A stretch of DNA of 41,528 nt from a virus, in IMG/VR virus record IMGVR_UViG_3300009164_000147, positions 1 through 41,528 of that record. One strand, written 5' to 3'. How positions within the stretch are numbered: the first letter of the stretch is position 1; every line of letters begins with the position of its first letter. The notes below the pieces were generated by a model, which made no database searches, was not told where the DNA came from, and saw only the letters and a list, made by a program, of their open reading frames with translations. Of this stretch, positions 3,568 through 17,771 are shown in pieces. Made by a program: the position numbers and the translations under genes.

Positions 3568-4215
3568 TCAGTTGTTAATTGCATTAACTAAATCAGCTAA
3601 TGCTTGCGCTCCTTGGTTAACAATTATACTATTGACATCGCTATCTGGAGGTAACGACACGCGGACAGCTTGAGGTATTGCATCCTGCAATCGACGTGCT
3701 AGTTCCTGCCCTGGGTTAGAGCCATCCTCTTTAGCATCGTTGTCAGTACAGATTACGACAGTACCAATGCCATCAAAACACCTACTAAAATAAGGCTTCC
3801 AAGCATTAACACCAGCAACGGCAACAGCAGGGAACCCAGCAAGAGTCGCACTAATCGCATCTATCTCTCCTTCTACTACCAACACTTGGCTAACCGCATT
3901 AAGTATTGCGCTGACGTTATATAGGTGGTGCTTCTGACCAGTAGGTATCATGTACTTAGGATCTCCGCCATCAATGCGACGGAACTTAAACCCAACTACG
4001 CCAGCCTCTGTTATGTAGGGGATAGATAGGTGATGTCTAAGTCTGTCCTCGTGACCAGGTGCTACCTCTGCCACATAACCTAGTAAAAATTTTTCGGCTC
4101 CATCAAGGATTCCACGCTGTGTTAGGTAAGCCTCTGCTGGTGAACCAGCAAGGCTGTCATGGTACTGGTGTGCTGCTTTAGTCCAGAGATCTATGAGCTT
4201 GGGGTTAGTCTTCAT
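3568..4215 (-). CDS. DNA primase, TOPRIM catalytic part (split primase)
   Basis: 215 residues. The TOPRIM fold is shown by VLVVEGEIDAI (catalytic E near residue 115) and the later VVICTDNDAK acidic motif that binds magnesium. The N-terminal 100 residues resemble the RNA-polymerase subdomain of DnaG (YLTQRGI, then SIPYITEAGVVGFKFRRIDG). There is no zinc-binding domain in this protein: that domain is encoded separately at 4739-5065, with the Ntn-hydrolase gene between the two. It should make RNA primers together with the zinc-finger protein and the helicase. The start ATG overlaps the upstream stop (ATGA) and has a GGAG site. Confidence 0.87.
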   Translation of the reverse strand: MKTNPKLIDLWTKAAHQYHDSLAGSPAEAYLTQRGILDGAEKFLLGYVAEVAPGHEDRLRHHLSIPYITEAGVVGFKFRRIDGGDPKYMIPTGQKHHLYNVSAILNAVSQVLVVEGEIDAISATLAGFPAVAVAGVNAWKPYFSRCFDGIGTVVICTDNDAKEDGSNPGQELARRLQDAIPQAVRVSLPPDSDVNSIIVNQGAQALADLVNAINN

Positions 4216-4742
4216 ACTTTCTCCTGCCTGTGTGTAATGAATGGAGGTGCAGTATACACATCATTGCGAGCAGCAATCTGCATTGCTTGCTTCCATGTCG
4301 CACCACCTGCTAGTGCGCCGAGTGCGAAGCTTGACCCTGACCCTGCGCCATACAGCCCATCATCACGCAGGTAGACAGAGTAAGAGTCATCTACTTGGTA
4401 GATCGTGCCGTTGATTGCAAGTATGAATTCAAATCCAGAGTCAGCATCATCCTTGTCTGGAACCCAACCTGATTCTTTAATACATTCTCTAATGCTTGGA
4501 GCTACAGTTGTAATCATGAAGTGATACATGTCTTTAATGTTAACTGGTATAGCTGGTGGTTTCCATACATGTTGTATCACATCACATGGTTGTACATCTC
4601 CAGCACCTGCAACCAACCACTTACCCCGCTTGCTAATCTTAGTAACAATCGGATGTGAGTATGGTCTACCACCTGCAGTGGTACGTGAATCGGCTGCAAG
4701 AATGCAGCCGTTGTCTTGTTGGATACCAATGATAGTTGTCAT
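4212..4742 (-). CDS. proteasome beta-subunit-like Ntn hydrolase (HslV/20S-type peptidase)
   Basis: 176 residues starting MTTIIGIQQDNG, from the ATG at 4742 that overlaps the previous stop (ATGA). After removal of Met the first residue is Thr, as in active proteasome beta subunits. Counting that Thr as 1, AADSRTT places Asp17 and Arg19 exactly, and VTKIS gives the catalytic Lys (34, one insertion from the canonical 33). A GSGSSFALGA motif and ARNDVYT near the end match the Ser129/Asp166 regions. There is no propeptide. It is probably an N-terminal-nucleophile peptidase assembling into rings; HslV, 20S beta and Anbu-like origins are all possible. It lies between the two primase parts. Confidence 0.82.
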   Translation of the reverse strand: MTTIIGIQQDNGCILAADSRTTAGGRPYSHPIVTKISKRGKWLVAGAGDVQPCDVIQHVWKPPAIPVNIKDMYHFMITTVAPSIRECIKESGWVPDKDDADSGFEFILAINGTIYQVDDSYSVYLRDDGLYGAGSGSSFALGALAGGATWKQAMQIAARNDVYTAPPFITHRQEKV

Positions 4743-5065
4743 CGAGACCTCAACCTTGGCGGTGTCCACCGCCCACTCTTCTTACTGCGACGATTGTGGA
4801 CAATCGGAGTAGAAGATTCCTTGCCAATATTTTTTTCAGCCCATGACCGAGCCTCTGGGTATGCTAGATGTTCACGAGCCATGATGATCTGTATACCAGC
4901 ACCACCACTGCTACATGCATAGCATACCCAGACGCCCTTCTCTGAGTTCACCGAGGCAGACTTACGAGAGTCATCGTGTACTGGACACAGGATTGACTTC
5001 TCACCTTGCGGTAAGTCCAATCCGTAATGATTGAAGACTGCTTCAAGAAACTCAGGCTGGTTCAC
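4739..5065 (-). CDS. DNA primase zinc-binding domain protein (split primase)
   Basis: 108 residues. This is the CHC2-type zinc ribbon of DnaG primases on its own: CPVH at 27-30 and CYAC at 48-51, separated by a basic strand (SRKSASVNSEKGVWV), then GGAGIQIIM and a helix typical of the family. The C-terminal 25 residues are basic and disordered. It should recognise template trinucleotides for the TOPRIM protein at 3568-4215. The start is GTG at 5065 with AAGGAA upstream, directly abutting the transglycosylase stop. Confidence 0.85.
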   Translation of the reverse strand: MNQPEFLEAVFNHYGLDLPQGEKSILCPVHDDSRKSASVNSEKGVWVCYACSSGGAGIQIIMAREHLAYPEARSWAEKNIGKESSTPIVHNRRSKKSGRWTPPRLRSR

Positions 5066-11247: not shown

Positions 11248-11754
11248 CTATTTCTTAGACGGACAGTGCTGACAGCATTTAGATGTATCTTCTGCTGGGT
11301 ATGCTTTCTTTGTTGGGACTGCAGCAACTGCTGCTCTTACTTGGTTAATCAACTTAGGTTGATTCATCCACCAGAACCATGGGCTAGTGTCGTTACCCAT
11401 GCCATCATTGATAGATATATGAAGATGCTTGTTGTGCTTATTACTACCTGTGTAGTTGCGATCACCTTGCTTAGCACGTTCCTTTGACCAGATCTTGCCA
11501 GTAAAGATTAAATACTTAACGCGCTTGTCTTCTTTAAGCTTCTGAAAAATATCAAAGCAATCAATACCGTTAGCAGGATCATGTGTCAGATCTACTGCTA
11601 GCCCAGTATTGTGGTCCGAAGTCGGGCTTTGCTTGACATGTGCAGCAGATGGTAGAAGACCATCGCTGGCTTTCTTTCTCTTTGGTTTCAACGCCGTCGC
11701 TTGCCGAAGCACAGCAATCGCAGCAGGTGTGGCTTTCTTGGCTACAGGTATCAT
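11248..11754 (-). CDS. endolysin, M15-type D-Ala-D-Ala/L-Ala-D-Glu peptidase
   Basis: 168 residues. SDHNTGLAVDL (His48, Asp55) and NKHLHISI (His110/His112) form the zinc site of M15/VanY-like peptidases, which cut peptide stems of peptidoglycan. There is no signal peptide, so release depends on the holin encoded two genes upstream (11954-12142). The C-terminus ends in a cysteine cluster (SKCCQHC) with no recognisable wall-binding repeat. The start ATG overlaps the upstream stop (ATGA). Confidence 0.82.
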   Translation of the reverse strand: MIPVAKKATPAAIAVLRQATALKPKRKKASDGLLPSAAHVKQSPTSDHNTGLAVDLTHDPANGIDCFDIFQKLKEDKRVKYLIFTGKIWSKERAKQGDRNYTGSNKHNKHLHISINDGMGNDTSPWFWWMNQPKLINQVRAAVAAVPTKKAYPAEDTSKCCQHCPSKK

Positions 11755-11954
11755 TCACGATTCTTTCCAGCTACTAGTTCGTATAAGCTGTCAACGCGGA
11801 GTTCTAATCTATCGAGTGAGTCACGCATCGAGCTTCCCGAATTTGGTTTCAATTCTGTGAGGTAGTGCTTAACTAACCAACGAACTGAGCCAGCAAAGCT
11901 GGCAACTATTGTGGCAGTGGCAACAGCCAAGCCAGCCCATTCGTTGGTAGACAT
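11751..11954 (-). CDS. small membrane protein of the lysis cassette
   Basis: 67 residues. Residues 6-27 form a membrane segment (WAGLAVATATIVASFAGSVRWL) and the remainder is a charged helix (DSLDRLELRVDSLYELVAG) likely to form a coiled coil. Placed between holin and endolysin genes with one- to four-base overlaps, it may be a second holin, antiholin or spanin-like regulator. The exact role is not recognisable. Confidence 0.65.
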   Translation of the reverse strand: MSTNEWAGLAVATATIVASFAGSVRWLVKHYLTELKPNSGSSMRDSLDRLELRVDSLYELVAGKNRE

Positions 11955-12142
11955 TACTCCGAACCGCGCCCGAAGTCTGTTGAAGATCCGTCAAGCCACT
12001 TAAGTACTGGTCCGAGGAATCCTGTTAGAGCTGCTGTTCCTAGAACCTTAAGGTCTGTCTGACCAGCAAGGTACAGAGCCACAGCAGCTGATGCTGCTGC
12101 GCGGAACCAAGACAATGCTATTGCTTGAAACTTTGCGTTCAT
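11954..12142 (-). CDS. holin
   Basis: 62 residues with two hydrophobic helices (about 6-25 and 31-47) and the ending WLDGSSTDFGRGSE. That ending matches actinophage holins, which end in a WLDxxDxxFGRG-type motif. It should form membrane lesions that let the endolysin out. AAGGAG precedes the ATG, and the stop overlaps the next start (TAATG). Confidence 0.75.
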   Translation of the reverse strand: MNAKFQAIALSWFRAAASAAVALYLAGQTDLKVLGTAALTGFLGPVLKWLDGSSTDFGRGSE

Positions 12143-12358
12143 TTATTTCTCCTTAGTTTTTCTACCCCAAGATATTTTATCCCAGATTCTTTCATGCCAG
12201 TAATAGATACCGACCTTTACTATTGTTTCCCAAAAAGCAATAAGTGCTGAGAGAGTTCCTTCACCAGTAATAACAAAGACAACAGCAAAGGAACTTAACG
12301 TTCCAAAGATTCTGTAGCTGAGTGACTTGGTAAATGAACGAGCCTTAGTTACTTTCAA
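12143..12358 (-). CDS. DUF2061 membrane protein
   Basis: 71 residues. It matches the DUF2061 pattern: an RSFTKSLSYRIFGTLSSF start, a membrane helix, TGEGTLSALIAFWETIVKVG and the ending YYWHERIWDKISWGR. It is a two-helix inner-membrane protein of unknown function. From memory, DUF2061 is sometimes found next to or fused with APS-kinase-type proteins; here the CysC-like gene is directly upstream. The start is TTG sharing TTGA with that gene's stop. Confidence 0.8.
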   Translation of the reverse strand: MKVTKARSFTKSLSYRIFGTLSSFAVVFVITGEGTLSALIAFWETIVKVGIYYWHERIWDKISWGRKTKEK

Positions 12359-13101
12359 ATTCCCAGTTCTTTTCTTTTCTGTGTAGCAGAAATAGATTGA
12401 AGTTCTTGGGAAAGTTCTACCTGTTCAATCTTGTATCCAACATCACGTCCATAAACTATGTTCGTAATGTTTGGAAACTTCACAACGAAAGATGACCGTT
12501 CTTCGGCTCTGATCCGATTGGCAACTTCAGAATAAGAGAGAGGGTCTTTCTCGCTAGTGCCTTGAGTATCTCTAACACCAATAACAACCTGTGCCGTACG
12601 CTCATGTGCCTTCTCCAGTAGTGCGTGATGACCCTCATGCCATGGTTGATAACGACCAAGCAGTAAGGTGGTAGGTGCTTTCCAATCGTGTAGATTAGAT
12701 TGAGCAATAATTAAATCTGTTTGAGCTTCGCTATTGTAAGATACAAAGCGGTAGTCAAACTCAGTAGGTGCTTCCCATAACTTGTTGGTATCTTCGAAGC
12801 GACCTTCGGCAATAGTGTCCATCCAGATACAGATGTCAGGCTTACCAAATGCTGCACGTGTAGCAGCGGTAGGGCAGATGAAATCAATAACAACATCTAG
12901 ACCTTGGCTAGATAGCATCTTTGCCATCTCGCCCATACGGCGAGCATGTTCGACCCTATCCTCTGGTGTGAAACCAAGATCGGAGTTGATCGTTGCTCGT
13001 ACGTAGTCAGCGTTTAGATGTACCGCATTGATGCGGTCAGCTAAAGAAGTGGCAAGCGTTGTCTTGCCACTGCCAGGTAGACCAATGATTTGAATAATCA
13101 C
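12355..13101 (-). CDS. APS-kinase-like (CysC) domain fused to nucleotidyltransferase
   Basis: 248 residues, GTG start at 13101. Residues 1-130: Walker A GLPGSGKTT (7-15), LNADYVRATINSDLGFTPED and RVEHARRMGEMAKML, the APS-kinase pattern that makes PAPS from APS and ATP. Residues 143-248: LLGRYQPWHEGH (HxGH at 155-158) and ISATQKR (237-243), the two signatures of the NMNAT/cytidylyltransferase fold. The second domain is too short for a normal ATP sulfurylase, though the domain order is that of PAPS synthetases. Substrates are unproven; nicotinamide or sugar nucleotides are alternatives. It is coupled to the sulfotransferase-like gene by a one-base overlap. Confidence 0.78.
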   Translation of the reverse strand: MIIQIIGLPGSGKTTLATSLADRINAVHLNADYVRATINSDLGFTPEDRVEHARRMGEMAKMLSSQGLDVVIDFICPTAATRAAFGKPDICIWMDTIAEGRFEDTNKLWEAPTEFDYRFVSYNSEAQTDLIIAQSNLHDWKAPTTLLLGRYQPWHEGHHALLEKAHERTAQVVIGVRDTQGTSEKDPLSYSEVANRIRAEERSSFVVKFPNITNIVYGRDVGYKIEQVELSQELQSISATQKRKELGI

Positions 13102-13925
13102 TATGCAATAATCTCGTTATAGATTTCTGTTATTTCTGTAATGGAATCTAAAAGATTAATATCTTTTAGCTTTTCTTTTGCAGCATTAAGAGCCTCTTGA
13201 TTGCCAGCTGGTGTTAAGTAGAAAGACTCACTACTTCTTTGCGCCAAAAATTCTTTAATAGGGTTAGCGTCAAATGGCTGTGGAGTTAATCCTAAAACTT
13301 TACCAATAGCATTTGTTATTTTTTCTGGGGTAGCTATCGCATCTTCAAACTTGAAGATGAGTAAGTTACTCTTATTGTTTTTAATAGCTATAAGCATCTT
13401 CTTGTCTTCAAGAATTCTATGCTTGATCTGTTCATCTGTTTCAAGCTTAAAAGCAATGATGCTTGATGCAAGAGAATCAACAGGGTTACGAACTACCGTT
13501 ACAGTAGCATCAAAATTATCTAAGCCTTTTGAGAAACTTTCAAAGTTGTGATGGTGCATGTAACCCCATCGTTGAAACGCTTGAGGAAATGCTTGGTTAA
13601 TGACAGCCATAGTCCAGTTATTTCCTGATCGAACTACAGAGTCAAACATAATAGATGGCTTTGTTGGCTTGGTAACCCCTACCCAGGAATCTCTGTAAGA
13701 ATATTTAGTTTCATCTATTTTAAAGATGTCATTAACTGGGTCGTAAATATCTCCAATTCCAGCAAACTTATTTCTAATGTTGGCATTGTACGAAGTTTGT
13801 ATCCAGGTACCGCCAAGACCTAAATCGTTTGCAAGAAATTCTTGACCTCGGTGTTCTTCGTCATTGGTAACTACAAGTACCTGGGTTACAATATTATTCT
13901 CATCAACTTGTGCAAAATGTGCCAT
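13101..13925 (-). CDS. virion-domain/sulfotransferase-like fusion protein
   Basis: 274 residues. Residues 1-70 (MAHFAQVDENNIVTQVLVV, then HRGQEFLANDLGLGGTW and AGIGDIYD) are a domain I know from tail/structural proteins of environmental phages. Residues 90-274 look like a P-loop sulfotransferase. SVVRSGNNWTMAVINQAF (97-114) stands where the 5'-phosphosulfate loop lies. TVVRNPVDSLASSIIAF (143-159) matches the 3'-phosphate-binding RNPxDxxxS motif. It would transfer sulfate from PAPS to an acceptor, perhaps while attached to the virion. The fusion is unusual; a degenerate, non-catalytic sulfotransferase fold is possible. Confidence 0.7.
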   Translation of the reverse strand: MAHFAQVDENNIVTQVLVVTNDEEHRGQEFLANDLGLGGTWIQTSYNANIRNKFAGIGDIYDPVNDIFKIDETKYSYRDSWVGVTKPTKPSIMFDSVVRSGNNWTMAVINQAFPQAFQRWGYMHHHNFESFSKGLDNFDATVTVVRNPVDSLASSIIAFKLETDEQIKHRILEDKKMLIAIKNNKSNLLIFKFEDAIATPEKITNAIGKVLGLTPQPFDANPIKEFLAQRSSESFYLTPAGNQEALNAAKEKLKDINLLDSITEITEIYNEIIA

Positions 13926-14848
13926 TATGGTGTCACGCTCCCTGTACCTGTAAATTTGTAATAACGATATCCACCAGTAACATAAACAGTTGGTGAGCCA
14001 GTTGTTGATGTCATAGCATCAAAAGTATCTGGATAGCGAATAATTACTATTCCACTACCACCTGCTCTAGCAGGTTCAAGTCCAGCACCACCTGTATAGC
14101 CACCAGCAGCACCACCACCGCCACCAGTGTTTGCAGTTCCTGCTGTAGAAGTTAACATTTTTGAACCAGATGGTTCTCCACCACCTGTACCGCCACCACC
14201 TGAACCACCATTAGCAACAATACCTGAACTAAGATAGTAAGTTGTGTAACCACCACCGCCACCACCTGCGTAAAAACCACTTACACCTGATGATGTTGCT
14301 GTAGCCCAAGATGAATAAGCATTAGAACCAGCACCACCTGAACGACCTATACCTTGTGGTGTATCGCCAGTGCCACCAACTGCGCCAGCACCACCACCAC
14401 CGCCACCGCCTTGGTTACCCACACCACCATTATTTCCTTGTCCTGATGTTCCAGCACCTACTGCGCCGTTTTGAGTTGAACCACCACCTGAACCACCGCT
14501 TTTACCAGGACCACCAGCAGCACCTTTACCACCACCACCGCCAAGAACTAAAGTTGCTGTCCCAATGCGCGAATCAGCACCATTTGTTCCATCACCCGAT
14601 CCAGTACCAGCAGCACCACCAGCACCAACTGTAACAGTTGTTGCACCAGCAATAGTTAATGAAGAAAAATAAAGAAAACCGCCAGCACCAGCTCCTGCTC
14701 CTGAGTAATATGCAGCATTAGTGCTACCGCCACCACCACCACCAGCAATAACAAGTGCTTCAACTACAACACTTTTTACATATGCAGGGTTTCCTGCCAG
14801 CATACTATTGTATCTTAAACCACCAGATAATTTTGCAACAGGAGTCAT
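13925..14848 (-). CDS. glycine-rich tail fibre / adhesin
   Basis: 307 residues, mainly glycine in runs (AGGGGGGST, then GGGGGKGAAGG) between short beta segments, closing with GGSGIVIIRYP and a small C-terminal domain (residues 275-307, TGSPTVYVTGGYRYYKF). Phage adhesins of this type form polyglycine-II sandwich tips that bind host surface polymers. It follows the 100-residue beta protein and precedes the sulfotransferase-like gene with a TAATG overlap. Confidence 0.7.
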   Translation of the reverse strand: MTPVAKLSGGLRYNSMLAGNPAYVKSVVVEALVIAGGGGGGSTNAAYYSGAGAGAGGFLYFSSLTIAGATTVTVGAGGAAGTGSGDGTNGADSRIGTATLVLGGGGGKGAAGGPGKSGGSGGGSTQNGAVGAGTSGQGNNGGVGNQGGGGGGGAGAVGGTGDTPQGIGRSGGAGSNAYSSWATATSSGVSGFYAGGGGGGYTTYYLSSGIVANGGSGGGGTGGGEPSGSKMLTSTAGTANTGGGGGAAGGYTGGAGLEPARAGGSGIVIIRYPDTFDAMTSTTGSPTVYVTGGYRYYKFTGTGSVTP

Positions 14849-15150
14849 TAAGAAATCTCCACTCCGCTAATATGAAAGTTAATAGTTGTAGCAGTTGCTA
14901 AACCCTTAATTGTTTTTGTAGTTGCAAGGACTTGCTTTAAGTCAATAGTTGTTGAATCATTAGCACCAACGGTAACAAGTGTTGCAATAGATACATCATC
15001 AAGAAGTAGTGTAAAATTTCCTACGGCTGCTGCTGTATTAGTTACTACAATATTAGTTACTACTGTAGTTGTTGCTGATGGTACTGTGTATAGAGTTGTA
15101 CTGGATGTTGCTGCTGCTCCACGGAACAGTGCTTTAGTTGTTGTAGCCAT
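14848..15150 (-). CDS. small beta-rich virion protein
   Basis: 100 residues, threonine/valine-rich (TTLYTVPSATTTVVTNIVVT, then FTLLLDDVSIATL). It is a single beta-sandwich-like domain without cysteines, similar in style to phage decoration or fibre-attachment proteins. It lies between the long fibre gene and the glycine-rich adhesin, so it probably belongs to the fibre assembly. AAAGG lies upstream of the ATG. Confidence 0.6.
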   Translation of the reverse strand: MATTTKALFRGAAATSSTTLYTVPSATTTVVTNIVVTNTAAAVGNFTLLLDDVSIATLVTVGANDSTTIDLKQVLATTKTIKGLATATTINFHISGVEIS

Positions 15151-15167
15151 TAGTTACTACCTTTCGT

Positions 15168-16868
15168 TTAGAGTGCGCCCATAAGAAGTAGTGCCAGTTC
15201 ATCTGCCACACTTCCTGGACCGTTGAGTACTACGTCGGTTAATCCTGAAATTGTTGATACCGTCACACCAGATGTAACTACTGTTGTGCCAAGTGTTGGT
15301 GCTAAATACCCAGCAACAGAAGCCCACTGAGTTCCTGTTGCTGTTGATTGTAAATATTGACCATTGGTTCCAGACGAAGCACCCGCTGTTAAGGTCCCAG
15401 TAAGTGTTGCATTATTGAGGGTTAATGCTGCAACAGTTGTTACTGTTGTGGCAGATGGTATAACCGTGCTGCCAAGCGTTGGTGCTGAGTAAATACTGGT
15501 AGTAGCGATCTGAACCCAAACAGATCCAGACCATACATACATATTGTTAAGTGCTGAGTTCCAATAGATAGCACCTACAAGAAGTGTGTTGCCATCATTG
15601 TCTACGGAAGGAGCAGATGCCTTGCTACCTAAGTAGCGATCATCAAAGTCGTCATAAGTTGTAGCAGCAGACGATGCTGACGTGGCAGCAGAAGCAGCAC
15701 TTGTTGCTGCTGCTGTCTGGCTTGTCAATGCTGATGATGCTGAAGTAGCTGCGCTCGCAGCAGACGTTGCTGCCTGTGCTGCTGATGTGACTGCTGTCGC
15801 AGCACTGCTTACTGCAGTTGCTGCTGATGTTACTGCCGTTGCTGTGCTTGCTACCGCAGTAGCAGCAGAAGCTGATGCAGTGGTAGCACTAGCAGCAGCA
15901 CTGGTTGCGCTAGTTGCTGCAGAAGTTGCTGACGTAGCAGCAGCTGCAGCCGAGTTAGTTGCTGTAGTCGCAAGGCTTGAGATTGTTGCCACTGATGCAG
16001 CAGCGGTTGTAGCAGAAGCAGCAGCCGAAGTGGCTGATGTTGCTGCGCTGGTTGCAGAAGTTGCTGCTGAGTTCTGTGATGTTAATGCTGATGACGCACT
16101 GGTTGCTGCACTTGAAGCACTGATACCAGCTGATGTAACACTAGCAGCCATTGTACTTGCATACGTAAATGCACTTGATGCTGAGGTAGCAGCAGAGCTT
16201 GCTGACACAGCAGCAGATCCTTGGCTAGTTAGCGAACTGGATGCACTAGTGGCAGCAGATGAGGCAGAGGTAGCAGAACTTGATGCTGACACTGAAGCAC
16301 TGCTTGCTGAAGCAGCAGCCGATACTGTCTGCGTATCGATGTAACCTTTAGTAGCAGCGTCAGATGTATTGGTAGGTGTTGCGAGTCCAGTGATTACTGC
16401 ACCTGTAATTGTTCCACCAGTAATGGTTGCTGTTGATGTAAACGCACCAGAGATTGTGGCTGCGTTAATAATAGGAGCGGTGAGTGTCTTAGTTGTTAAG
16501 GTCTGTGCTCCACCTGTGCCAACGATATCTCCAGTTACACCGTGGTGACCAGAGGTTGCTACTTCGTGTTGGCGAGACTCGGTAAAGTCTCGAGCCGATA
16601 CACCGTGTTCAACGTTAGCACCGAAGGCGTGTGCCTTAGCACCCGATACATCAATGTTGCGAGTGATCTGATAGGCAGTACCTACCAGACTGGTGACTTC
16701 AACTACTTCTTCATTGGCTGTATCCTTTTCAAGAATGAGTGTGTATGGATACGATGAAGGTAGATTGCTTGCAGCAGCAAGTGTTAAGCTTGTTGCTGAA
16801 GAACTGATTGATGCAGCAAGAGTCGTTTTAGCTGCGGTTGAACTATAGAAACGTAATTGGGTTGGCAT
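15168..16868 (-). CDS. tail fibre with long Ala/Ser/Thr repeat stalk
   Basis: 566 residues. An N-terminal attachment domain (1-180) has a beta module ending ARDFTESRQHEVATSGHHGV. Next comes a stalk of about 230 residues (about 180-410) built of Ala-Ala-x-Ser-type repeats, then a small domain (DDFDDRYLGSK, YWNSALNNMYVWSGSVWV) common in fibre proteins. Two copies of an APTLG(S/T)TV unit lie near the C-terminus. It is probably a trimeric receptor-binding fibre. The serine/threonine-rich stalk is an obvious candidate for modification by the downstream glycosyl- or sulfotransferase-like proteins, but nothing proves that. Confidence 0.75.
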   Translation of the reverse strand: MPTQLRFYSSTAAKTTLAASISSSATSLTLAAASNLPSSYPYTLILEKDTANEEVVEVTSLVGTAYQITRNIDVSGAKAHAFGANVEHGVSARDFTESRQHEVATSGHHGVTGDIVGTGGAQTLTTKTLTAPIINAATISGAFTSTATITGGTITGAVITGLATPTNTSDAATKGYIDTQTVSAAASASSASVSASSSATSASSAATSASSSLTSQGSAAVSASSAATSASSAFTYASTMAASVTSAGISASSAATSASSALTSQNSAATSATSAATSATSAAASATTAAASVATISSLATTATNSAAAAATSATSAATSATSAAASATTASASAATAVASTATAVTSAATAVSSAATAVTSAAQAATSAASAATSASSALTSQTAAATSAASAATSASSAATTYDDFDDRYLGSKASAPSVDNDGNTLLVGAIYWNSALNNMYVWSGSVWVQIATTSIYSAPTLGSTVIPSATTVTTVAALTLNNATLTGTLTAGASSGTNGQYLQSTATGTQWASVAGYLAPTLGTTVVTSGVTVSTISGLTDVVLNGPGSVADELALLLMGAL

Positions 16869-16871
16869 TCA

Positions 16872-17771
16872 TCACCTCTGATACTGGATTATGTTGAGGA
16901 AGTTGGCTTGCTGCTTTGCAACCTCTTCCGCAAGGCGGACGGAGTAAAGCTGGAAAAGATATTTAGCAGTAGTAGTAGATGCACCAGCAGATACTGGTTG
17001 ATCTAATGCGTCTGCTGAAACTGATGTGGCAATAACCTTGCCTGGGTCTACCGTTGAAAGAAGGCGATACATAGCACCAAGACGTACAACGTCTTCACAT
17101 GATGCTGGCAATCCACTGACTGTCAACTCTTGATTAGCTGTGATGGTTGTTGGGTATGCTGTGTACTGCACGTTAACTCGAGCACCACCCATAGGTGCTT
17201 CGTTAAGCACAATAGCCTGACCGTATGTGTTTGTTGTTTCGTTATAGTAGTTGGTATCAATACGCCATCTCTTAATAAGAGCCCATACTCCAGTTGAATC
17301 TGGAAGTTCCCATGAGACACCAGTAATATCTACTACTTCATCTGGGATTGAGTATGCGTATTGTGAACCAGTAAAATCAAAATCTGTTTCTTTAATGACA
17401 GGGAAATTCATTCCCTTAATAGTTTCAAGTATCGCTCGTTTAACTTGTGTCCTTGGGAATAAAGGATTGTTTCTTACGACTGAGCCAGATACGTGGCTAG
17501 TTGCTGTGGTTCCACGCCATCCCCTACCAACAGGATTAGCTGTGGTTCCAAGGATTGATAACGTACCACTTGCTGCGATAGACTTTTTTACGTATAGCAG
17601 TTCATCATCGATCTCGATGATTCCCTTACTAATAGCAGTTGCGTCATCAACTGCAATAGATAAATCATTGCTGTTGGTAACGTTAAGTGCAATCGTGACT
17701 GATTCCTGGTTACGGACATAGCCATTCATCTCACCAAGCGTTTGTTCTGTTAATTGATTTAACGTAGCCAT
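16872..17771 (-). CDS. putative connector / tail-adaptor structural protein
   Basis: 299 residues. The N-terminal part (1-105) is a beta module with IIEIDDELLYVKKS and GRGWRGTTATSHVSG. It has the same style as the N-terminal beta module of the fibre at 15168-16868 (RG/H/G motifs). The C-terminal part is helical (CEDVVRLGAMYRLLST, then QLYSVRLAEEVAKQQA) as in head-to-tail connectors. It lies between capsid-proximal genes and the fibre. Exact family is not recognised; a tail-tubular role is plausible. Confidence 0.6.
   Translation of the reverse strand: MATLNQLTEQTLGEMNGYVRNQESVTIALNVTNSNDLSIAVDDATAISKGIIEIDDELLYVKKSIAASGTLSILGTTANPVGRGWRGTTATSHVSGSVVRNNPLFPRTQVKRAILETIKGMNFPVIKETDFDFTGSQYAYSIPDEVVDITGVSWELPDSTGVWALIKRWRIDTNYYNETTNTYGQAIVLNEAPMGGARVNVQYTAYPTTITANQELTVSGLPASCEDVVRLGAMYRLLSTVDPGKVIATSVSADALDQPVSAGASTTTAKYLFQLYSVRLAEEVAKQQANFLNIIQYQR

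Follow-up and report, generated by a model that had tools for sequence, protein, structure and literature searches.

A putative PAPS-dependent sulfation cassette next to the tail fibre gene of a tailed virus

The virus record IMGVR_UViG_3300009164_000147 (positions 1–41,528; here the window, meaning the whole 41,528-base stretch that was analysed) encodes a major head protein, portal, terminase, primase and replicative helicase. Next to its tail fibre gene lies a group of genes that, we propose, forms a cassette for sulfation dependent on 3′-phosphoadenosine 5′-phosphosulfate (PAPS). The nearest relatives of the terminase are in two unassigned phage records and the next nearest in Streptomyces phages, so an actinobacterial host is possible.

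A preliminary description of this DNA had placed six genes at 12143–16868 in a particular order, most of them overlapping or abutting, and the arrangement is as it described: all six are on the minus strand, as are all other window features given below, and adjacent frames share 1–4 bases or abut, except that 17 bases separate the fibre gene from the next one. The array begins with a Ser/Thr/Ala-rich tail fibre of 566 residues (15168–16868; phrog_38058, tail fiber protein, 6e-124), followed by a 100-residue protein, a putative beta protein in the preliminary description (14848–15150; phrog_1276, function unknown, 2.7e-6), and a 307-residue glycine-rich, adhesin-like protein (13925–14848; Pfam Gly_rich_2, 2.4e-11; phrog_863, tail fiber assembly, 4e-6). 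Next come a 274-residue fusion of an N-terminal domain (the N-domain) to a putative sulfotransferase (13101–13925; phrog_7759 and a sub-threshold Sulfotransfer_1 match), and a 248-residue fusion of an APS-kinase-like domain to a nucleotidyltransferase (12355–13101; APS_kinase and CTP_transf_like), which we refer to as KIN; APS is adenosine 5′-phosphosulfate. The last gene encodes a predicted membrane protein of 71 residues with a TTG start, which overlaps KIN by 4 bases (12143–12358; Pfam DUF2061, 1.2e-15). The array is unlikely to have arisen by chance, because relatives keep the same gene order. A nucleotide search of known phages with positions 12143–17771 returned short matches alone, in seven records and none spanning most of the query; six lie in the fibre gene and one in the glycine-rich gene.

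Domain composition of the two putative enzymes

The 274-residue fusion protein has two parts. The N-domain (residues about 1–75, 13701–13925; phrog_7759, 4.1e-21) is a stand-alone protein of 84–134 residues in most of the other virus loci that were read. The remainder (residues 78–274, 13104–13694) was assigned from an AlphaFold model (m1b4e381ecc61; mean predicted local distance difference test score 78, with the C-terminal half more confident) and structure comparison; the input was alignment A3 of the window protein and six relatives. All 50 PDB entries listed by VIA for this region are sulfotransferases (Z 12.2–10.0, 8–14% identity), and Foldseek concurs on the fold (best E 7.8e-5). The region also contains two short motifs that we take to resemble the PAPS-binding loops of sulfotransferases: VVRSGNNWT (residues 97–105, 13611–13637), like the 5′-phosphosulfate-binding loop, and RNPVDSLAS (residues 146–154, 13464–13490), like the 3′-phosphate-binding loop. 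R99 of the first, and R146, N147, P148, D150, S151 and S154 of the second, are invariant across the seven rows of A3. The sulfotransferase-like identity suggested in the preliminary description is supported by the predicted fold and by both loop-like motifs, and we regard the protein as a divergent putative sulfotransferase, weak by sequence and clear by predicted structure. It shares predicted fold and both motifs with the cytosolic and tyrosylprotein sulfotransferases of the Sulfotransfer_1 fold, and differs from them in its low identity in the listed comparisons and in its fusion to a domain from a fibre gene cluster.

Among 52 loci in a first search for relatives of the fusion, four match past residue 100 (L082, L083, L084 and L015), and L082, L083 and L084 are 100% identical to the window protein, L084 being incomplete; among 80 loci in a second search, L136 matches fully, L149 to residue 120 and L167 to residue 102. 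Loci L003–L006, L013 and L014 were obtained as KIN neighbours. Among six relatives tried, that of L013 alone passes the Sulfotransfer_1 cut-off (30.7 bits, 2.6e-7).

The N-terminal domain of KIN (residues 1–141, 12679–13101; Pfam APS_kinase, 2.7e-16, 60.4 bits versus a cut-off of 21.1) includes the Walker A motif GLPGSGKT (13060–13083) and matches the solved APS kinase 3uie in sequence (5.1e-14). When residues 1–141 are compared by VIA, every one of the first 30 entries contains an APS-kinase domain or is an APS kinase (Z 18.1–15.1; for the highest, 141 residues, root-mean-square deviation 2.2). A sugar kinase (Z 14.8) ranks next, ahead of gluconate kinases (Z of 14.7 or less) and of shikimate kinases. 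The Walker A residues G7 and P9–T14, the LGF and DR residues and an RR pair are invariant in a 32-row alignment (A1). The full-length equivalog model TIGR00455 is missed (60.8 bits versus 138.7), which marks the domain as divergent and not a standard CysC. Family, fold and motifs nonetheless give strong evidence that the kinase is closest to APS kinases, as the preliminary description had supposed in calling it CysC-type, and it would phosphorylate APS to PAPS.

The C-terminal domain of KIN (NT; residues 142–248, 12358–12678; Pfam CTP_transf_like, 6.3e-6) is a nucleotidyltransferase of the HxGH type with the motifs YQPWHEGH (12628–12651) and ISATQKR (12373–12393); YQPWHEGH and ISATxKR are invariant in all 32 rows of A1. 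PF01747 (Sat) is absent from the best 25 of the 31 families matched for KIN, and what we propose below is a sulfurylase-like activity. These nucleotidyltransferases belong to a single superfamily, so a profile comparison of NT with Sat would not tell the functions apart. In its order of domains, with an APS kinase at the N-terminus and a nucleotidyltransferase at the C-terminus, KIN is like PAPSS1/2, in which the C-terminal nucleotidyltransferase is also of the HxGH kind. There are clear differences, however: KIN has 248 residues versus about 600, its C-terminal domain is PF01467-like without a listed PF01747 match, and its APS-kinase profile is matched in part. Comparison by VIA of the whole KIN model with 1x6v (Z 15.9, root-mean-square deviation 16.9 over 238 residues) indicates that the domain arrangement differs as well.

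Conserved neighbourhood and gene exchange

A scan of IMG/VR gave at least 600 stretches, at least 596 of them encoding KIN relatives, and the best 80 loci were kept. In 67 of the 78 loci with at least 1 kb of sequence after KIN, DUF2061 is no more than 1.5 kb downstream; it is in none of 127 control loci that hold the N-domain and no KIN. The 71-residue protein of the window passes the Pfam DUF2061 cut-off (58.1 bits versus 23.1). DUF2061 is a conserved partner of KIN, perhaps acting in anchoring or in sulfate supply; papers that name DUF2061 concern other topics, judging by their titles. The preliminary description had staked its proposal beforehand on a conserved neighbourhood in related viruses, and such a neighbourhood is present.

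Sulfotransferases are also found near KIN. In 18 KIN loci that were read gene by gene, a sulfotransferase-like gene is no more than four genes from KIN in 11. Five of these pass a Pfam sulfotransferase cut-off (L002, L009, L010, L018 and L020), and four match below cut-off at E ≤ 0.01 (L007, L011, L016 and L017). For the other two Pfam gives nothing: the L004 gene product is homologous to the sulfotransferase fusion of the window, and that of L012 was recognized by motif. Among 128 cluster representatives of genes within three genes of KIN, Sulfotransfer_2, Sulfotransfer_1 and Sulfotransfer_3 match 5, 4 and 2, possibly with overlap, versus none of 117 control representatives. (The control set, A5, comprises 117 of 335 clusters, 33 of 150 having been omitted, mostly large, opposite-strand or second members; it derives mostly from L085–L152, with some from L166, L177, L180, L186, L206 and L213.) Across whole records, PF13469 (Sulfotransfer_3) matches at E ≤ 0.01 in 9 of 48 KIN records, five of them over cut-off, versus 1 of 45 control IMG/VR records, the two sets being unmatched in record size. 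PF03567 matches just 4 of the 48 KIN records, one over cut-off, from which it follows that Pfam alone underestimates sulfotransferases here.

Other KIN neighbours include 2OG-Fe(II) oxygenases, Asp/Asn hydroxylase-like proteins and tryptophan halogenases. The last (PF04820; 3 of 128 neighbour representatives) stand near KIN and DUF2061 at L028:2680-4233 (3.2e-104) and L063:7024-8577 (7.3e-105). By eye, HAD-type and glycerophosphodiesterase-like genes lie upstream of KIN in L019, L026 and L029. KIN was found in nine known phage records, in five at a coverage of at least 80%. Two of the nine are from Stenotrophomonas phages (L133:6001-6732 and L134:5989-6729; about 42–43% identity), in which KIN adjoins an oxygenase and a phosphatase, or a NADAR protein and a methyltransferase.

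We compared 11 loci with similar fibre and downstream genes, picked by eye. A sulfotransferase-type gene is present in all seven that have KIN, with L003 and L136 alike, and in none of the four that do not. First, the window, L003 and L136 carry the fused N-domain/sulfotransferase and next to it KIN and then DUF2061, as does L005 after a gap. Second, L002 has a separate HIPKT-type sulfotransferase (Sulfotransfer_2, 1.2e-4; 22.7 bits versus a cut-off of 22), after which come KIN and DUF2061, and L007 has a stand-alone GFPRSGNSF-type protein (Sulfotransfer_1, 0.0092, below cut-off), then KIN and DUF2061. Third, in the more distant L020 a Sulfotransfer_3 gene (3885–4769, 1.6e-11) sits between the N-domain and KIN, which DUF2061 again follows. 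Finally, no sulfotransferase, KIN or DUF2061 was found in L085, L086, L087 and L091, and PF13469 has no match in the records of L085, L087 and L091. Homologues of the 100-residue protein follow the fibre gene in L002, L003, L087 and L091. KIN thus pairs with several different types of sulfotransferase, in keeping with the original suggestion that kinase and sulfotransferase belong together. The donor gene is kept while the sulfotransferase is swapped, and nothing else speaks as strongly for KIN as the source of PAPS for these enzymes.

The L020 sulfotransferase gene runs antisense to the fibre and KIN genes, a possible sign of exchange in the slot. A 195-residue protein of L085 with a string like a sulfotransferase loop was left uncounted, as Pfam finds nothing in it.

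The preliminary description had also nominated a glycosyltransferase gene (1413–2198, given there as 1413–2177; phrog_34859, 2.9e-87) as supplier of the acceptor sugar. This has no positional support in the window, and in L087 and L091 homologues of the gene (45% and 52% identity; Pfam matches sub-threshold) fill the slot that the sulfation genes occupy elsewhere. This suggests that glycosyltransferase and sulfation genes are alternatives rather than partners. Genes for glycosylation of phage fibres or capsids are known; the L087 and L091 glycosyltransferases share the slot with the sulfation genes, and chemistry and donor differ.

Relatives of the nucleotidyltransferase in SAR11

A scan of bacterial genomes, from which 16 loci were kept, revealed sulfotransferase genes within two genes of KIN on three contigs (L223, 1.8e-25; L225, 1.1e-10; L231, 5.8e-11) and a near-threshold one on a fourth (L220, 1.3e-4). 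In L237, from SAR11, a Sulfotransfer_1 gene (6.2e-6) adjoins a fused KIN. In L231 (6001–6736) KIN is split into two overlapping frames, a kinase of 132 residues and a nucleotidyltransferase of 115; glycine-rich and N-domain-like genes precede it, and the Sulfotransfer_1 gene follows directly. PF01747 is present in none of 10 cellular genomes that carry KIN or its parts.

A further locus, L229, drew attention to SAR11. Depending on the genome, these bacteria have kinase and NT as one fused protein, as separate neighbours, or NT by itself. Five loci have a lone NT gene (L257:6998-7390, L258:6977-7357, L259:6995-7375, L260:6992-7372 and L262:6977-7357) with a membrane-protein gene, aprB and aprA immediately downstream of it. 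The aprB and aprA genes of L257 pass their NCBIfam cut-offs; the intervening membrane protein has weak matches and would be aprM by position, an aprM preceding aprBA being described in the part of PMC2211403 consulted.

Counts made by eye in 80 SAR11-family genomes extend this association. The aprA gene is over cut-off in 31, and the NT domain is present in 28 of these versus 11 of the other 49 (Fisher p 1.7e-9, uncorrected for kinship). In 14 of the 28, NT and aprA share a contig and are no more than 5 kb apart. Sat (PF01747) occurs in 3 of the 31 aprA genomes and 4 of 80 overall, and CysD is over cut-off in none of the 31 and 6 of 80. According to the passages seen of PMC5069961, Ca. Pelagibacter ubique lacks sat and cysDN and has aprA; its table places cysC in the same strains as aprA, and its text also lists cysC as absent. 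The formation of APS from sulfite calls for an enzyme that releases sulfate, for which NT is the best-placed candidate, and the reverse reaction would make APS. The C-terminal domain of KIN thus probably makes APS, judging from this genomic context; if so, the fused protein would be complete, and KIN may be a PAPS synthetase of 248 residues. By eye, the SAR11 kinase/NT pair is also found near Rieske-type, crotonase-like and sugar genes, which a role in APS formation does not explain.

The proposed pathway, its alternatives and the remaining genes

In the pathway that we propose, the NT domain of KIN would join ATP and sulfate into APS, the kinase domain would phosphorylate APS to PAPS, and the neighbouring sulfotransferase would pass the sulfuryl group of PAPS on to a hydroxyl group of something in the infected cell. 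DUF2061 would perhaps anchor the enzymes or supply sulfate. Since PAPS can hardly be expected outside the cell, sulfation should take place in the course of infection, with a substrate that the infected cell produces or already contains. The N-domain is often beside glycine-rich fibre-type genes (Gly_rich_2 matches 46 of 117 control neighbours), and its fusion to the sulfotransferase here, together with its stand-alone form beside fibre-type genes elsewhere, suggests that the target is the fibre, or a glycan attached to it, and that the N-domain would guide the enzyme there. The Ser/Ala repeats of the fibre were not used as modification sites, as we presume that they may equally be ordinary fibre sequence. 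We put the probability that this is a PAPS-dependent sulfation cassette of a tailed virus, flanked by the fibre gene on one side and the small downstream genes on the other, at roughly two in three. A broader proposal is more tentative and falls somewhat short of probable: that NT is a compact ATP sulfurylase of a new type, that phage KIN is a single-gene PAPS synthetase powering exchangeable, fibre-decorating sulfotransferases, and that the lone NT of SAR11 is the missing final step of sulfite oxidation.

Several observations weigh against these interpretations. The Sulfotransfer_1 match of the window protein is below cut-off (E 0.024, 14.5 bits versus 22), as is that of its L015 relative (0.0019); at E ≤ 0.1 Pfam gives no sulfotransferase match for the fused relatives in L003, L004, L014 and L136, and NCBIfam has none for the window protein or for four of five other sulfotransferase-type proteins tried. 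The APS_kinase profile is aligned at positions 4–91 of 152 only, and most rows of A1 have His or Gln in place of the Asn of ENIRR, which we take to be the usual motif in APS kinases. The fibre is a candidate substrate on account of its position only. In SAR11, kinship may contribute to the association of NT with aprA, 14 of the 28 genomes do not have NT within 5 kb of aprA on one contig, and sub-threshold aprA fragments in two genomes (G069 and G135) were counted as aprA-negative.

The chemistry could be correct and the target different, namely the host envelope or capsule, where sulfation would block superinfection or aid lysis. The module does end in a predicted membrane protein followed by small genes, and in SAR11 locus L233 a SIS-domain gene of the sugar-isomerase type (7.9e-11) lies beside KIN, with similar genes seen by eye in L235 and L236, which fits surface polysaccharides. 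The sulfotransferase, however, is fused to the N-domain or directly follows it in the window, L003, L005, L007 and L020, and we consider a host target unlikely, although it is the main rival to the fibre. A role for KIN as an auxiliary metabolic gene, providing PAPS for host sulfur assimilation or other uses with the sulfotransferase gained separately, would account for the seven of 18 loci without a sulfotransferase-like gene within four genes (L019, L021, L022, L023, L025, L026 and L029, of which L022 ends at a contig end) and for the position of KIN amid DNA-metabolism genes in the two Stenotrophomonas phages; both of these also count against the cassette. It is improbable given the repeated pairing of KIN with different sulfotransferases, and no PAPS reductase family is among the best 25 of 58 families matched for KIN neighbours. 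Slightly less probable still is that KIN activates sugars or nucleotides in the manner of HldE or NadR, to which we liken it as kinase-adenylyltransferases, and that the sulfotransferases are chance neighbours. NT resembles nicotinamide mononucleotide (NMN) adenylyltransferases most by sequence, a further point against an APS-forming role, yet no match is above cut-off (the best reaching 30.4 bits versus 127 in NCBIfam); the SIS-domain gene of L233 would also suit such an activity. The kinase, by contrast, is closest to APS kinases in both sequence and fold, and neither the pairing with sulfotransferases nor the NT gene beside aprB and aprA in SAR11 would be expected.

Phage sulfotransferases have been reported as auxiliary metabolic genes (PMC10580990, PMC8290583), with a function that remains unclear according to the part of PMC10580990 consulted; in the passages seen of both papers they are single genes, with no donor-making enzyme or fibre cassette. 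No phage module combining donor synthesis and a sulfotransferase beside fibre genes was found among the literature titles and starts of abstracts listed, a search that did not extend to bioRxiv or to most subscription papers. Each type of reaction is already known, and the compact enzyme and the cassette would be new variants. If the cassette acts as proposed, a virus would itself encode, beside its fibre genes, the means of turning sulfate into a sulfated product, and phage sulfotransferases would gain a concrete role. The exchange of sulfotransferase types, and of a glycosyltransferase, at a single position resembles a site at which surface chemistry is diversified, which would bear on adsorption and on escape from recognition by the host. 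The SAR11 NT, if its proposed role is correct, would supply a step reported as missing from sulfur metabolism in a dominant ocean bacterium.

Downstream of the cassette are three genes of unknown families encoding proteins of 62, 67 and 168 residues (11248–12142), the first two being putative lysis-type proteins and the last having a weak VanY match. The 62-residue protein (11954–12142), described earlier as a holin, has as its sole match a PHROG of unknown function (9.9e-5). Homologues of these downstream genes are present in L005, L085 and L091.

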